The translations under genes were made by a program, and so were the position numbers. The notes under the pieces were generated by a model. It saw only the letters and a list, made by a program, of their open reading frames with translations. It searched no databases and was not told where the DNA came from. This document shows positions 15,654 to 23,016 of a stretch of 29,931 nucleotides of DNA, piece after piece. Every line of letters begins with the position of its first letter. Within the stretch, counting starts at the first letter, position 1. This DNA is from a virus. Where the stretch lies: positions 1 through 29,931 of IMG/VR virus record IMGVR_UViG_3300046010_008663; one strand, written 5' to 3'.

Positions 15654-17087
15654 CTATCTCTCAATGGTAAACGATACAGACCGATTAATATCTGTTGTGA
15701 AACTTGTCATTCGGTCAATCCCGGTATCAAAATTCATCTCACGTTGAATCATTGTATCAAAATTCACGATTTCAGGCATGACAACAAGAATACCATCACC
15801 GGTAATAGCATGATTATAGAAAATCTGACTATTTGTAAATATACTGGATTGGGTTAATTTAACCGATCCAGGTGATACAGTATGCGAGTAGAAAGTATTA
15901 GTATTTGTTAATAATGGTGGTTGTAGCGTTATTCCGCTGCCAACAGTGATGGCTGCCGAATAAAACGCGTTATTATTAACAAAGTACGGCGATGTTAAGG
16001 CAACACTACCGACACTAACAGCATGACTGTAAAACGCGTTGCTATTGTTAAATATCGATGATTGAACAAGGCTTCCGCCAGCTACGATTGTGTGACCGTA
16101 GAATGAAGCGCTATTATCAAATCTTGCTGATTGGCTGAGTGTTACACTGCCAAACGATAAAGTAGGCGCATAGAATGACTGACTATTGCTGTAAAGCGAT
16201 GCTGTCAGGGTTTGTGGCGCTCCACCTTGTGTTAGTGCGTGAGTGTAAAAACTGTTGATATTTGTGAATAGCAATGGGCTTAGATTAACCGCCCCAGGCG
16301 TTACAGTTGTAGAATAAAAGTTGTTGGAGTTGTCAAAACGGCTAGACTGTGTAAGTGTTGTTGCTCCGCTGCCCGACGACGCAAAAAAGAAAGGACGCTG
16401 TTCCGGCTCAAATATTTGCCAAGGGTTTTTTGTTAATTGTTTGCATACTTCGTCTGGAATGGCTCTGCCTGTAAAGTATAATGAAATACCTCCATCGAAT
16501 GACCCACCAAAACCTGACCCTAGATACTCATTTGTGGAATCTCCTATCCAGGTAGAAGAATCTGTTGCATACGTCCCTCTACTTGTCCATATTTTAACTA
16601 CCTGCGCAGACCCAACTGCAATCCTAGAGCATTTAATAATAACAGTTTGTAGTTTATTTTCTGCAAAACTCCCAATGTCGATTGATCTATAAGCTCCACC
16701 GAAATAGAACCTCAAAGAGCTATAATGGTGTTGTATTAGAAATGACGTATTGCCATCAGTGGCATTACTACCTAGTGAGTATAAGGCTTTTGTCCCTGTA
16801 TATTCTGGTATATAAAATTGAAACCCTATAATGAAGTCATTATTGATTCTACCTACTGGATTCTGCCTGTATAGATGACTTCCAGACGTGAACGTAGTGG
16901 TTTCAGTTCCGGCAATATTTACCTTACCTGTTGTGCCAGACTTTATGAAACCAACAGGTGCTACAATTTCCTTTAAAAACCCGTTTATAGGGATAACAGC
17001 ACTGGTTATATTTTTATACTGTTGTTGTATATCAACAACAGTATCAGGCTGTTTTATCCTTTTATCAGGCAGTATCAGCAAAGACAT
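15654..17087 (-). CDS. LamG-like protein with FY-repeat domain, putative adhesin or decoration
   Basis: The 477-residue protein has three parts. Residues about 55-210 look like a concanavalin/LamG sandwich (DFIIGFQFYIPE, LRFYFGG, GGISLYFTGRAIPDEVCKQL) ending in the phage linker NPWQIFEPEQRPFFF (221-235). Residues 244-434 are eight repeats with F-x-N-x-x-x-F-Y-x-x-x-(V/I/L) cores spaced 23-25 residues. Residues 441-477 are a second repeat with F443, F453, F463 and F473 exactly 10 apart. LamG domains often bind sugars or proteins. Whether it sits on the head or tail is unknown. It starts at ATG 17087, next to the split gene's stop. Confidence 0.85.
   Translation of the reverse strand: MSLLILPDKRIKQPDTVVDIQQQYKNITSAVIPINGFLKEIVAPVGFIKSGTTGKVNIAGTETTTFTSGSHLYRQNPVGRINNDFIIGFQFYIPEYTGTKALYSLGSNATDGNTSFLIQHHYSSLRFYFGGAYRSIDIGSFAENKLQTVIIKCSRIAVGSAQVVKIWTSRGTYATDSSTWIGDSTNEYLGSGFGGSFDGGISLYFTGRAIPDEVCKQLTKNPWQIFEPEQRPFFFASSGSGATTLTQSSRFDNSNNFYSTTVTPGAVNLSPLLFTNINSFYTHALTQGGAPQTLTASLYSNSQSFYAPTLSFGSVTLSQSARFDNSASFYGHTIVAGGSLVQSSIFNNSNAFYSHAVSVGSVALTSPYFVNNNAFYSAAITVGSGITLQPPLLTNTNTFYSHTVSPGSVKLTQSSIFTNSQIFYNHAITGDGILVVMPEIVNFDTMIQREMNFDTGIDRMTSFTTDINRSVSFTIER
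15786..16358. repeat. Eight tandem 69-75 base coding repeats (FY repeats)
   Basis: On the minus strand the repeats encode units such as LTQSSIFTNSQIFYNHAITG. Phe-Tyr pairs fall at residues 257, 280, 305, 329, 352, 375, 399 and 423 of the host gene, so spacing is 23-25 residues. Nucleotide identity between copies is only moderate, implying an old array under protein-level selection rather than recent expansion. Confidence 0.85.
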
Positions 17088-17521
17088 TTAAGCAATATCC
17101 GCCAAATAGGTAATGTAATGCAGCGTATTTCCCGTGCTTAGAGTGGTTCCAGTTGAGTTTTTAATTACTATCTTAAAATGTGGCGGAATAAAGCCTAATG
17201 CTTGTCGTACATTAAATGCTTTACGTTGTAAGGTGTTATCAGGTGATAAAGGTAAATAGTCTATATAGTACAAATCAGGCTCTGATGTTGTAGTCGAACC
17301 GGATTCAGGGCCGCTGGTATAAGTTACCCCACCATCAAATGATACTTTAGCAAACACATATACTGCTTCATCACCTGATGTCACGCCAGGAGTAATAGCC
17401 AGTTCAATCACTAGATCAACGGGGTCGATAGCTGACACATCAATTGCAGGACTAATCGCGTAGTTGCCGACCCTGATAAAGTAACTGCTGTGCGAGTGGG
17501 CAAAAGTTTCCCAGTAGCCAT
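17088..17521 (-). CDS. Unknown beta-rich phage protein, reading frame split by an apparent -1 shift
   Basis: ATG at 17521 has a strong AGGGAG site 8 bases upstream and opens a frame starting MATGKLLPTRTAVTLSG that ends after 36 codons. The -1 frame carries the rest, beginning VGNYAISPAIDVSAIDPVDL and running 116 or more codons to 17088. The only start in that frame is a GTG at 17438 with no ribosome site. Joining the frames at GGG (17473-17471) gives one 144-residue protein with no awkward segment. Either a one-base deletion or sequencing error in the G run, or ribosomal frameshifting, would explain this. The product looks like a small beta-sandwich. Function is unknown. Confidence 0.65.
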
Positions 17522-17967
17522 TAGATTAACTCCCTAGCCTGCGCTATGTCTTGTGCTGTGGCATTTAGACCAATTTCATCCAACCGACTCACTTGCTCAG
17601 TAGCAATCGCCAACAAGGTTGCCTTATGCTCTTCAGTGAAATCGGGAATCAACGTTTCTGCGACCAAAGCATCCAACAAAGCGATAAATTTAGCTTGAAC
17701 CGCTGGTATGGTTAGATCGAATACCGGAAAGTCCTCTAGCGCCAATGTTACTGCTTTACAAGCTGGGGCCGTGCTTTCCATGATTGGGATTCTGACATCT
17801 ATCAAAGATAAGTATTGTTTGATGTCATGAGCTGTTATCTTACCCAATCTCGATATGTCTTTGCGTTGCAGCACAGCAAGCACGGCCCCATCGTTACCTT
17901 GCGCCAAATCAAATGCTATTTCTTGTGACAGTTGGCCATTGATCAATTCATCAATTAACGTTGGCAT
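17521..17967 (-). CDS. Unknown helical phage protein
   Basis: The 148-residue protein looks almost wholly alpha-helical, with no Trp, signal or membrane segment. It contains LAQGNDGAVLAVLQRKDISR (21-40) and a long C-terminal helical pair ending DIAQARELI. It follows the signal-peptide gene by one base and its stop overlaps the next ATG (TAATG). GAGG precedes its ATG. I do not recognise the function, but its constant company (this gene, the 172-residue gene, the 138-residue gene) suggests a conserved accessory structural block. Confidence 0.75.
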   Translation of the reverse strand: MPTLIDELINGQLSQEIAFDLAQGNDGAVLAVLQRKDISRLGKITAHDIKQYLSLIDVRIPIMESTAPACKAVTLALEDFPVFDLTIPAVQAKFIALLDALVAETLIPDFTEEHKATLLAIATEQVSRLDEIGLNATAQDIAQARELI

Positions 17968-17968
17968 T

Positions 17969-18487
17969 TTATGGCCTCATGATTGACGGAACGTCATTGA
18001 CGTTAATTGCCCCCTCAAACGTCAACAATCCCGGTGTCCCGTTTGTGCCTGTGCCTGTTGCCAGTGCTCTTTCAGCGTTGGTGGCGTTGCGTTTAGAGGT
18101 TGCTGTAGCTGCTGTAGTGGTTGCGCTGGCTGCGCCAAATGCATCAATAAAGCCTTGGCGAACATTTATTTTGCTTGGATTGATAAAGTTATCCAAACAC
18201 ATCCATTCCCATATACGCGCCTTACCGTTTGTCAAAGCGTCTACTGCCGTCCAAACAATTGCCGTTTCTCGATACTCTTTGCACGACACGCTTGTTCGCC
18301 ATACGACAAAGCTGGACTGAGTGTTTAACCATGTCGCAACCGCTGTGTCATCCCCGTTCTGAATCGCAGTTGTCAGTGTCGGCTCTGCTAATGCCGCTGT
18401 TTTTAGCGTGGCTTTTTGTGTGTTATCCAGCGCCAAAACACCGAAAGTCATACTTAACAACAAAATGAAATATAGGATTCTTTTCAT
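17969..18487 (-). CDS. Phage family protein with an N-terminal signal peptide
   Basis: Residues 23-172 belong to a family common among siphophages near the head genes: GDDTAVATWLN (45-55), VVWRTSV, GKARIWEWM, then AERALATGTGTNGTPG and LLTFEGAINVNDV at the end. Its function is unknown. Unusually, this copy begins MKRILYFILLLSMTFGVLA followed by LDNTQ. That is a textbook Sec signal peptide: two positive residues, a hydrophobic core and a VLA cleavage site after residue 19. GGAG lies before the ATG at 18487. If cleaved, the protein would be exported to the periplasm, odd for a supposed virion component. It could instead be anchored by an uncleaved helix. Confidence 0.85.
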   Translation of the reverse strand: MKRILYFILLLSMTFGVLALDNTQKATLKTAALAEPTLTTAIQNGDDTAVATWLNTQSSFVVWRTSVSCKEYRETAIVWTAVDALTNGKARIWEWMCLDNFINPSKINVRQGFIDAFGAASATTTAATATSKRNATNAERALATGTGTNGTPGLLTFEGAINVNDVPSIMRP

Positions 18488-18496
18488 GTTGACTCC

Positions 18497-18913
18497 TTAA
18501 AGTGCAAAAATGCCTGAAGCATTGAAAGTTAAATTAATGTCTCCGCCATTTGGATTGACTGGTAGGTTAGTTACACCGGTATCGATGAATGCCACCAATC
18601 GCCAAGTGGTATTGGCCCCAGCGTTTCTGCGATAAATAACCAGTGCTTCTGCGGTTGCGCCTGTTACTGCTGTGAATGTCACGTCACCACCATCAAAAAC
18701 ACCGTTGGTGTAAGATTTGGTTGCACCAATCTCAACAGGTGTACCAACAATGCCAGATAATGACGAATAAAATTCGTGTGCTGCACTGTAGGTATAGGTT
18801 CCGGTATCAACCAGGGCAACATATACCCCTGTTGTTCCTGACCCGTCTAAATCGGAATCAGCGCTATTTTGTAAAAGCGCTTCTTTCCATTTGGGATATA
18901 TCGCATTTGCCAT
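18497..18913 (-). CDS. Conserved phage structural-region protein, unknown function
   Basis: The 138-residue protein strongly resembles a widespread siphophage family: MANAIYPKWKEALL start, YVALVDTGTYTYSAAHEFYS (31-50), NGVFDGGDVTFTAVTGATAEALVIY (69-93), FIDTGVTNLPVNPNGGDINLTF and an IFAL end. The order and spacing of these blocks are complete, so it is intact. It is beta-rich and often found near head or fibre genes. Whether it is a virion component is not established here. It begins one base after the preceding stop. Confidence 0.85.
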   Translation of the reverse strand: MANAIYPKWKEALLQNSADSDLDGSGTTGVYVALVDTGTYTYSAAHEFYSSLSGIVGTPVEIGATKSYTNGVFDGGDVTFTAVTGATAEALVIYRRNAGANTTWRLVAFIDTGVTNLPVNPNGGDINLTFNASGIFAL

Positions 18914-19265: not shown

Positions 19266-19411
19266 TGAGGGGTAGACACCAGCCAATGAATATACACCAA
19301 TGCTGACCACATGATGAACAGAGTTCCCATTGTTACAATGAGCTGCCATCTTTTTGATCGGTCTGTAGAACGTCTTGAGTGTGTTCTTTTTTCAACATAG
19401 CATTCGTTCAT
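19262..19411 (-). CDS. Small single-pass membrane protein (49 aa)
   Basis: ATG at 19411 overlaps the stop of the holin-like gene (ATGA), and its TGA at 19264-19262 overlaps the next ATG in the same way. This double coupling argues strongly that it is translated. The product has a basic N-terminus (KRTHSRRSTDRSKR, 8-21) and one hydrophobic segment QLIVTMGTLFIMWSALVYIH (23-42), so it should be an inner-membrane protein with N-terminus inside. It could be part of a lysis set (antiholin or spanin-like), though it is short for an inner spanin. Confidence 0.75.
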   Translation of the reverse strand: MNECYVEKRTHSRRSTDRSKRWQLIVTMGTLFIMWSALVYIHWLVSTPQ

Positions 19412-19770
19412 TTCGTAACCTCTGAAAAGAACTTCTCGATGATTTTTTTCGGCATGTGTTTCAGTGCCGTCAATGTTTCTTCAGCAAAACACGCGAAGAA
19501 CCCAGCGAACACTATCGATGGGTGAGTCGGTATCAGCATCCAGGCAGCGACACTGACCATCAGAAAACTGACACCCATTGCCATCATCAGAAATCGCATC
19601 CACCTTCGAAAGCATACAGTGTGCGAACTTCCACAACTATCTTCAAACGCTGTCCTAGTGAAACTAGCCACGAATGCGATGACAAATGCACCCCAGTACG
19701 GGCCAGTCATGAATGTTGTGACCAATCCAGCCGATATGGTCAAGACTGTTTCTGAAAAGGGTGTCGCCAC
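19408..19770 (-). CDS. Three-helix membrane protein, putative holin
   Basis: The 120-residue protein starts at GTG 19770 (TAGTG overlap with the lipoprotein stop, GGAG upstream) and has three hydrophobic segments at about 8-36, 57-80 and 82-101, then a basic helical tail KHMPKKIIEKFF. This topology and size fit class I holins, which open the inner membrane at the end of infection. Supporting context is a lipoprotein gene upstream and small membrane genes on both sides. No endolysin gene is present in the window, so the holin call is moderate. Confidence 0.65.
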   Translation of the reverse strand: MATPFSETVLTISAGLVTTFMTGPYWGAFVIAFVASFTRTAFEDSCGSSHTVCFRRWMRFLMMAMGVSFLMVSVAAWMLIPTHPSIVFAGFFACFAEETLTALKHMPKKIIEKFFSEVTK

Positions 19771-20033
19771 TATTTCACTCCTTTTGCTGCACCTTCAACG
19801 ATAAGACTCAAACCTTCATTAATTTGCTTCATACCTTCCACCCTATCGGCGTTGTAACCGTCCAATTTCAATAACCTTGAACCATCAGCACGGGTTTCAA
19901 ATCGTGCACCTTCCAGTGCTTGAGTCGTGCCGAATTCCCACCCTTCGGCTTTTGTGCTGCCGTCAGGGTGAGCTTCGTATGTAATGTGGCTACATGCAGA
20001 TAAAAACAGGAATAGGCTAGTTTTTAGAATCAT
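19770..20033 (-). CDS. Small lipoprotein (lipobox LSAC)
   Basis: The 87-residue protein begins MILKTSLFLFLSACSHITYE: a signal with lipobox LSAC and the lipid-modified Cys at residue 14. Ser follows Cys (position +2), which favours sorting to the outer membrane in enterics. The mature part is short, polar and beta-like (YEAHPDGSTKAEGWEFGTT), then GLSLIVEGAAKGVK. Next to a holin-like gene, an outer spanin (Rz1-like) is conceivable, but it is not proline-rich and no clear inner spanin is seen. Superinfection exclusion is an alternative. Confidence 0.82.
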   Translation of the reverse strand: MILKTSLFLFLSACSHITYEAHPDGSTKAEGWEFGTTQALEGARFETRADGSRLLKLDGYNADRVEGMKQINEGLSLIVEGAAKGVK

Positions 20034-20190: not shown

Positions 20191-23016
20191 TTAACTCTGG
20201 ATAATGATTTTTTGTAAATCGACTGCTATCATATCTGCACCAGTTTGATTAACATGATAATTTGTGGTTCCGTCACTAAAAGCCGTAGCAATTACATAAG
20301 GGTCAGCAGCATCACCTATCGATTTTTTAAAATCGTAAAATGAACAATCATAAGATGCACTCAATGCTCTTATTGCCATATCGATCTTTTGATAAGCGAG
20401 ATATTGACCATCTGTTATCCAACCGGTCAAACCTGATTTTCCAGGTTGAACACTGGTCAATATCGGTTTCAAACCTTTACTGATCGCAAATTTAACAGCG
20501 TTTTCAATCGCCAATAGATCAGTCGTTATTCGATCATCTTGATTTGCCAATGTTGACCCAATCACTGTGTTTATTGATGATTGTATTAATACAAATGCTG
20601 GCATCTGATTGGTATCAATAAGTCTCTGAATTTTTGAATTGAAATTCGAAAGATAAGAGTTTGGTCTAGTTCCAGCTACGGTAGCACCTGCTACTGTTTG
20701 TCTCTGCGCATATACTGCAATTTTAGGATTAGCCAACAAGCGTAGTCGTTGCGGATAATCAATTGTGTCATTGACCCATGAGTCACCGAATATAGCGATG
20801 CTGAACTTATCACCCTTGATTCGATTTCGTTTTGTTTCAACTACCATCCCTTTAGTAGCAGTACCGACCATCGATGCCTCATATTCATACAGAATAGGTG
20901 CTGACTGTAAACCATCGCAAGCAGGGGGAGGAACGGGCAAACTGATTTCGCTCAAATCAACGCATTGAATTTCGCTTAGAGTACAGCTTGCTGTTACTGC
21001 ACCCGATGTCACTGCATTGGTTCCAAATCCCAGCCTCCATGCGATTGTCTGAGAAGTAGTAGGTTGGAATATTACACAATATGTACCATCACCAGTCATA
21101 TCAGTAGTACCGATGGATAAATCACCAAAGTCTAATGTAGGGACTGTACCTGTAGTAGCCAAAAATGGTGAGTTAGTGCTAGTCGGTAATACCAAATCAG
21201 TCACTTTGAAAGATACTGCATATATATGTCCAGCAGTAAACGTCTTAGCTGTTGAAAACAAACTTAAATAACCACGACCACCAGAAGCGCATTCTAAATA
21301 TAGTGATTGCGTTGCATCGTCTGCGGTAACGGTTCCGCCTGTCAATTGCGTTTTAGATATTTCTGAAACAAATTCTTTATCCAATATATTTTCAGCAATC
21401 ATGATGTTGCGTAGTTGCACATCCGACCCTGATATTACACCACCACCACCACTGCGACTCACACCACCAGTCATTTTGGCCCAGGTGCTCTTGTCACCCA
21501 ACCCACCGTTACCTTCAGACTGCTTGACATAAGCAACACCGTAAGATGTCACTACATCACCACGCGTGTAATCGTTACCTTCAACGTACTGACCTTTGTA
21601 GGCTCTCAGTGGTACAGAACCATCGTTGATCTCAGTCGGTTGAAGCAACAGATCGACCACATCTTTCTCAAGCGATTGAATGCGCTGACCTTGATCTTCG
21701 ATGACTGCTTTATTCTGCACCAGGACATCTTCAATCAGACCGATTGACTTCTGTGAGTCAGCGTGAAGTTCGTGATACTTGAGAACCGTGTCCTGAATCT
21801 TTTTGAATTCTTTATCGAACTCAACTTTGGTGAACGGTTTGGCAGCGAACAGGCGATGGTTCACACCATCATAAAAGAATGTTGAACCGTCTTTGTGATA
21901 GAAGTCACCCGGTTCATAGTCGTGTTTGTCTTTGAATCCACCCGTATCACGTAGACCGTGAGTACCGATTCGTTTCCAGTGAGTCGAGTCACCCGGTTCT
22001 TCGGTCGTATCTTGCATGGCGATATATTCACGCCCGGTAAAGTGCTTGACCACCGAACCTTCACGATAGACACCCACTGACCAAGGTTCTGAGTGGATCA
22101 CTTCTTTAACCAGACCGATGAACTTCTGATCGGACACCAGTTTCTCAGCCACCAATCGTTCATCAGCATCACGACCCGGTTTCCCGCGAATCGCTTCACC
22201 GTGTTTCAACATCAACTCACCGACGACTTCAACCACATCGACGGGATCAGCGTCTTTACCGGGATCACCTTTCAATTCATCACCATGACGTTTGATCAGT
22301 GTGTCGGCTACGACAACAGGATCAACCGGTTCAGGTTTCACCATCTCCGCAAAAGTTTTGTCACGCAGGATGTGTTTCGCTACTTCAGTCGGACTTGGTG
22401 ATTTGCCGGGTTCCCCTTCATCACCTTTCGCACCTTTCAACAGATGACCATGTTCATCAAGAATACGGTTCATCACGGTATCGACGTTGAACGACTCAGC
22501 AATTGACTTGCGTATGTTGGTCAGTTCTTTCGCAAAGCGATCAGCGTGATCAGCAATAGCACCATCCATGTTCGCCCATTTCTTCTCGAACGAATCAATC
22601 ACGGTTTTCACCCGGTCAATATTCGCCCGTTCATTGTCTGACAGTTTCTTGGTGAATTCGTCATGCAACCCTTCATTGACTCGCAGCTTCTCACCGAACT
22701 CCGACTTCAAATCATCGACGATCTGATTCACGGACTTGCTGAGGACATCTTGAATCAGACCCTTGAGTGATTTAATCTCAACGTCGAAGATGCTTTTTTG
22801 AGCCTCCATCAGCGTTTTCTGGTGTCCGATTTGGGAATCAACCGCTAACCATTTTGACTCAAACTCATCGACGATTCGACGGATTGAAGTCACTGATTCA
22901 GCAGTAAGGGAAAGGTTGGAATTGAATTCATCTCGTAGTTGACTAACCTGAGATTTCAACGCTGTCGCAAATTCGGTAGAAATCGATTTGGCGATTTGAA
23001 TAGTATCTTGACTCAT
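20191..23016 (-). CDS. Long tail fibre with collagen-like segments and C-terminal SGNH esterase domain
   Basis: The 941-residue protein has five regions. Residues 1-190 are coiled coil. Residues 195-285 hold three short collagen-like inserts (GAKGDEGEPGK, LKGDPGKDADP, IRGKPGRDADE) between helical repeats. Residues 305-400 and 470-517 hold CBM5/12-like modules with WSVGVYREGSVVKHFTGREY and YTRGDVVTSYGVAYVKQ. Residues 530-690 form a beta-rich domain. Residues 735-941 form an SGNH hydrolase, with FGDS (Ser746), QSSIN (Asn816) and DGTTNYHVN (His921). The last domain could remove acetyl groups from surface polysaccharide. The DxxH block is stretched, so activity is uncertain. It has its own promoter within the portal gene's end. 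Confidence 0.9.
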   Translation of the reverse strand: MSQDTIQIAKSISTEFATALKSQVSQLRDEFNSNLSLTAESVTSIRRIVDEFESKWLAVDSQIGHQKTLMEAQKSIFDVEIKSLKGLIQDVLSKSVNQIVDDLKSEFGEKLRVNEGLHDEFTKKLSDNERANIDRVKTVIDSFEKKWANMDGAIADHADRFAKELTNIRKSIAESFNVDTVMNRILDEHGHLLKGAKGDEGEPGKSPSPTEVAKHILRDKTFAEMVKPEPVDPVVVADTLIKRHGDELKGDPGKDADPVDVVEVVGELMLKHGEAIRGKPGRDADERLVAEKLVSDQKFIGLVKEVIHSEPWSVGVYREGSVVKHFTGREYIAMQDTTEEPGDSTHWKRIGTHGLRDTGGFKDKHDYEPGDFYHKDGSTFFYDGVNHRLFAAKPFTKVEFDKEFKKIQDTVLKYHELHADSQKSIGLIEDVLVQNKAVIEDQGQRIQSLEKDVVDLLLQPTEINDGSVPLRAYKGQYVEGNDYTRGDVVTSYGVAYVKQSEGNGGLGDKSTWAKMTGGVSRSGGGGVISGSDVQLRNIMIAENILDKEFVSEISKTQLTGGTVTADDATQSLYLECASGGRGYLSLFSTAKTFTAGHIYAVSFKVTDLVLPTSTNSPFLATTGTVPTLDFGDLSIGTTDMTGDGTYCVIFQPTTSQTIAWRLGFGTNAVTSGAVTASCTLSEIQCVDLSEISLPVPPPACDGLQSAPILYEYEASMVGTATKGMVVETKRNRIKGDKFSIAIFGDSWVNDTIDYPQRLRLLANPKIAVYAQRQTVAGATVAGTRPNSYLSNFNSKIQRLIDTNQMPAFVLIQSSINTVIGSTLANQDDRITTDLLAIENAVKFAISKGLKPILTSVQPGKSGLTGWITDGQYLAYQKIDMAIRALSASYDCSFYDFKKSIGDAADPYVIATAFSDGTTNYHVNQTGADMIAVDLQKIIIQS

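Follow-up and report, generated by a model that had tools for sequence, protein, structure and literature searches.

Phages encode exported proteins that act at the envelope, among them Lom and Bor of phage lambda and Llp of phage T5, and exported phage lipoproteins such as Llp block re-adsorption from the periplasm. On the virion side, gp80 of podophage GP4 is described as a part of fibre I in PMC13243795 (citing Zheng 2023). The same paper presents gp34-36 of LSH1 as an extra virion module found by mass spectrometry, which includes a GP4-fibril-like protein and sits downstream of the lysis genes (PMC13243795). The terms 'signal peptide', 'signal sequence' and 'periplasm' were absent from the searched text of PMC13243795, and among the titles and abstract beginnings covered by a literature search none dealt with signal peptides of tail or fibre proteins.

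The window analyzed here is a 29,931-nucleotide stretch of virus DNA (IMG/VR record IMGVR_UViG_3300046010_008663, positions 1 to 29,931). An earlier sequence-only reading had pointed to an ORF on its minus strand, termed the target below, and the position, ATG start and length of 172 aa were as given there. The features of the target and its surroundings are as follows.

17969..18487, minus strand: target ORF, 172 aa, ATG start; member of an orphan-fold family among virion genes, with a predicted signal peptide
18431..18487, minus strand: signal peptide, residues 1-19 (MKRILYFILLLSMTFGVLA), predicted from sequence with cleavage after Ala19
17972..18430, minus strand: mature domain, residues 20-172; of 70 aligned rows, the window protein and L002 alone have Cys69 and Cys97
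18493..18498, minus strand: Shine-Dalgarno sequence AAGGAG, which overlaps the upstream gene at its stop codon; same in L002
18497..18913, minus strand: 138-aa tail protein (phrog_644) directly upstream of the target; related to 'tail wing arm, gp31' (PDB 9d93)
17521..17967, minus strand: 148-aa distant paralogue of the target, directly downstream, with no signal peptide; profile-profile E 8.6e-6, probability 83
17088..17438, minus strand: remnant of a beta-type protein (150 aa in L001), downstream of the target; 19 nt missing compared to L001, frame shifted
15654..17087, minus strand: 477-aa large protein, last of the module; the protein at the equivalent position in L013 matches the phrog_13352 minor tail protein
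19408..19770, minus strand: 120-aa membrane protein, possibly a holin (name inferred from sequence; no family match)
19770..20033, minus strand: 87-aa probable lipoprotein, lipobox LSA/C

The target operon, on the minus strand, carries genes for a capsid-protease fusion, portal, head-tail adaptor, tail terminator, major tail protein, tape measure and J-like tail proteins. The neighbours of the target are of virion type. The tail protein directly upstream shares 72.5% identity with one from Pseudanabaena phage Pam2, with other phages far lower, a likeness that may reflect recent exchange or a cyanobacterial host. The frameshift of the beta-type gene relative to L001 (window 17439-17520) reflects a true break in the gene or else a variant of the assembly. 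Further upstream, a 941-aa protein (window 20191-23016) has collagen-like GxY stretches and no significant Pfam or PHROGs match; by its motif, the C-terminal part is a putative SGNH hydrolase.

The sequence-only reading had assigned the core of the target to a common siphophage family. Profile look-ups with the target in Pfam, PHROGs and NCBIfam gave no match above cut-off (best E 0.014 to 0.18), with the best NCBIfam and Pfam matches falling far below the cut-offs of those libraries. No relative was detected by tblastn among cultured phages (50,697 phage records) and plasmids with the proteins of the window, L013, L024 and L020, nor in two genome-contig scans, of which one gave 116 stretches, none a relative, and the other gave 0 stretches. 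A PDB sequence search with the target returned no match of note. By contrast, scans of IMG/VR revealed an identical protein (L001) and relatives of 80% (L002), 58% over residues 46-166 (L032) and 41% (L033) identity. Further IMG/VR scans gave 22 stretches by motif, 48 loci by alignment A2 and the best 80 of 86 loci by alignment A5; collapsing identical cores among near-complete profile matches left 79 distinct members. The target matched the alignment A3 profile over its full length (E 1.2e-60), the window itself being one row of A3, and residues R133, A135, E139, T144 and G159 of the core were invariant in 35 rows. The family is real in IMG/VR, although Pfam, PHROGs, NCBIfam and cultured phages gave no support for calling it 'common'.

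The N-terminus of the target has the features that the sequence-only reading attributed to a complete Sec signal peptide. Within residues 1-19 an n-region with K-R is followed by an uncharged hydrophobic core and by V-L-A at positions -3 to -1, after which the chain continues LDNTQK beyond the predicted cut. By our home-made rules, the target looks like a substrate of Sec and signal peptidase I, with a basic n-region, a hydrophobic core, a small residue at both -3 and -1, and a translated start. A lipobox was not found (the +1 residue is Leu, and the rule output was SP and not LIPO), nor was a Tat twin-arginine motif, the n-region reading M-K-R with no RR. The AAGGAG lies 6 nt 5' of the ATG. 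Signal calls were made by two home-made rules, one strict and one looser. The strict rule recovered 8 of the 10 first-found signals but also passed one signal-less member (L074), and the looser rule was fixed after the first ten signals were known. By the strict rule, 21 of the 486 genes called in these loci passed, of which 6 were target homologues and 15 were other genes.

Comparison of the window with L002 shows that the signal segment is translated, since its codons changed mostly synonymously. Over signal codons 2-19, there were 8 synonymous and 2 nonsynonymous changes among 18 codons (dN 0.045; dS 2.6, which is saturated), compared to 56 synonymous and 32 nonsynonymous among 153 codons of the mature part (dN 0.136, dS 1.53). 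The silent bias was thus greater in the signal codons than in the mature part, and the signal codons are under purifying selection. The same signal is kept in L002 although a different gene lies directly upstream. On sequence grounds, the signal is best explained by export, and the target is very probably exported by a Sec-type route.

The statement that family members normally begin near residue 22 was about right: among the 79 distinct members (from the best 80 of 86 loci), 65 had a start codon no more than 2 codons away from the conserved Leu, which is residue 20 in the window protein, and in the other 14 a hydrophobic export signal ended at or near this Leu. An extension unique to the window, as had been raised, is at odds with this alignment. 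Signals are carried by the window and by L002, L017, L027, L028, L029, L032, L062, L073, L076, L120, L130, L163 and L167, with the chosen start 17-19 (five members), 20-26 (six) or 29 or 30 (three) codons upstream, a span of 17 to 30. For L062, the looser rule picks a TTG 29 codons upstream, and an ATG 16 codons upstream was used in the earlier tree and alignment. The signal of L120 is doubtful and was counted both ways, as an ATG also occurs one codon ahead of the family start in the alignment. A Shine-Dalgarno sequence of at least 4 bases was present at the upstream ATG in 7 of the 10 first-found signal-bearing members, the exceptions being L027, L062 and L073.

On a 70-row tree built on cores minus the signal (9 near-identical rows of the 79, themselves from the best 80 of 86 loci, omitted), the signal label changed 11 times, with at least 8 changes forced by well-supported (starred) branches, or 10 times when L120 was not scored as signal-bearing; these counts do not separate gain from loss. 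A first tree of 35 rows, which omitted the two partial rows L018 and L022 and five near-identical ones, gave 8 changes, at least 6 of them forced. Gain is favoured because most signal-bearing rows are single tips next to signal-less rows.

AlphaFold modeling of the target with 35 rows gave a mean pLDDT of 93.2 and a pTM of 0.82. The pLDDT was about 66 over residues 1-20 and 94 to 98 over nearly all others, which puts the boundary of the fold close to residue 20 and marks the mature part, in the model, as a confident separate domain. The fold had no match by Foldseek in PDB or BFVD. Three cysteine pairs, in six alignment columns, were private to signal-bearing rows, with none of the 56 signal-less rows having cysteine at those columns: C69/C97 in the window and L002, C41/C49 in L017 and L028 (the same two columns, though the two are distant on the tree) and another pair in L163 and L167. 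The number of cysteines in the mature part was zero or even in 12 of the 14 signal-bearing and 27 of the 56 signal-less rows (Fisher p 0.015, uncorrected for kinship). Eleven signal-less rows hold another pair, at columns 137 and 164; therefore, paired cysteines by themselves are no mark of export. The pairs private to signal-bearing members would nonetheless fit an oxidising compartment. With the signal placed where other members begin, its codons conserved and these private pairs present, the suggestion of a predicted exported version of a virion-region family was upheld.

The paralogue at 17521-17967 is predicted by AlphaFold (mean pLDDT 93.4) to have the same order of helices and strands as the target, and it had no Foldseek match in PDB. 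Such a signal-less paralogue was found near 8 of 14 signal-bearing members compared to 2 of 56 signal-less members (p 1.2e-5). For the other 6 signal-bearing members, no paralogue was detected in the sequence covered, which for L076 ends 205 nt downstream. As the seeds came mainly from signal-bearing loci, the search was redone with signal-less seeds alone, by which 5 signal-bearing loci were recovered and no additional signal-less ones. In leave-one-out runs, every omitted seed was recovered. When restricted to loci with 900 bases on each side, the paralogue was present in 7 of 12 signal-bearing and 2 of 48 signal-less cases. Tree-controlled independent pairs numbered 2-3 for the association and 0 against (p 0.25), too few for significance.

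Signals also occur in other genes around the family. Within 5.5 kb of target homologues, 16 of 540 genes passed the strict rule, 4 of 120 near signal-bearing and 12 of 420 near signal-less members (p 0.76). A reading in which the whole neighbourhood is exported was dropped on these counts; the rates being equal, the trait belongs to the target family and to scattered other genes, and not to the module as a whole. The nearest case of a signal-bearing relative of a known virion protein is L032:1571-2083, a 170-aa protein of a different family from the target that matches the podophage GP4 fibre I profile PF23140 (E 3.8e-31) and PDB 8jou. This protein (P0008), encoded upstream of the target homologue, has two cysteines in its mature part. 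In the contig of L062 (G003), six genes in structural/late regions have signal-like starts, the target homologue included; the other five are as follows.

L088:6657-8375: protein with signal-like start
L088:8919-9398: protein with signal-like start
L088:13222-13833: protein with signal-like start
L090:13149-13955: protein with signal-like start
L090:13967-15280: protein with signal-like start

Two of these five match phrog_28171, and two of the five (P0010 and P0012) have several cysteines each. A 162-aa protein with a signal peptide and no family match (L065:8217-8705) also follows the module in the L002 phage.

We propose, with about even confidence, that the target is the exported twin of a virion-type protein, which either works at the cell envelope in late infection or is added to virions as the cell lyses. 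The sequence-only reading had put the exported form outside the virion, but such a protein could still be taken up into virions on lysis. Support at the level of sequence is provided by the signal, its conservation and recurrence, the domain boundary and the paralogue; from these we infer export, cleavage, a disulfide, a division of labour and a site of action. In a siphophage late operon with the module order tail-wing-type protein, target, distant paralogue, beta protein and large tail protein, the target would carry a cleavable Sec signal peptide, leave through SecYEG and be cut by signal peptidase I after Ala19. It would then fold in the periplasm, where Cys69 and Cys97 could pair, and exercise its core function outside the cytoplasm, either at the envelope during late infection or on virions leaving at lysis. 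The binding function is probably unchanged, because the core is conserved and is the same as in signal-less members, and the signal-less downstream paralogue would retain the cytoplasmic (virion) role.

An exported virion part, which matures in the periplasm by disulfide formation and cleavage and then joins virions at cell lysis, is possible but rather improbable: the private cysteine pairs, the signal-bearing GP4 fibre I relative in L032 and the several signal-like starts among the late-region genes of the L062 contig (two with phrog_28171) point this way, whereas the neighbours in general lack the signal trait. We consider it unlikely that the signal remains uncleaved and anchors the domain on the periplasmic side of the inner membrane, where lysis proteins may be its neighbours. 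The hydrophobic segment is short and very hydrophobic, L062, L027 and L073 bear signals without a clear Shine-Dalgarno sequence, and lipoprotein and membrane protein genes lie upstream of the target, but nearly every member has small residues (A, S, G) at the boundary, and there the core begins with little linker. Superinfection exclusion, in which the exported copy would block re-adsorption by binding, from the periplasmic side, to the envelope or the phage receptor, is by analogy a live rival of similarly low likelihood; a virion-type context combined with an export signal in a late operon, and the frequent gain and loss of the signal as suits an arms-race trait, are consistent with it, but members with no detected paralogue would need to manage without a virion copy. 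A real start around residue 20, with the in-frame stretch ahead of it left untranslated, is very improbable, as the TTG that precedes the aligned family start by one codon has no Shine-Dalgarno sequence, whereas the upstream ATG has a good one, the signal codons show synonymous bias and L002 has the same start despite its different upstream gene.

If the target is an exported twin, genes filed as 'structural' would act outside the cytoplasm before lysis, and annotation based on position would misread about a fifth of the target family. Tentatively, tailed phages may repeatedly make virion-type proteins Sec-exported by adding a signal at the old start, often beside a signal-less twin, and such twins may make up a counterpart of the tail-fibre module on the envelope side, masking receptors or dressing virions at lysis. 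Since the signal has been gained or lost repeatedly on an unchanged core, the family offers natural matched pairs, such as L017/L041 or L032 and its sister group, with which to probe the use of export.

In its proposed role, the target resembles the exported morons and exclusion lipoproteins (lambda Lom and Bor, T5 Llp) in being phage-encoded, exported and active at the envelope. To our knowledge, Lom, Bor and Llp are not members of a mostly signal-less family among virion genes. GP4 gp80 (PF23140; PDB 8jou) represents a virion fibre family of which the relative in L032, upstream of a target homologue, also bears a signal; it differs in that the target itself has no match to the PF23140 profile. 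The gp34-36 module of LSH1 may likewise be compared to the context of the target, going by the description given in PMC13243795.
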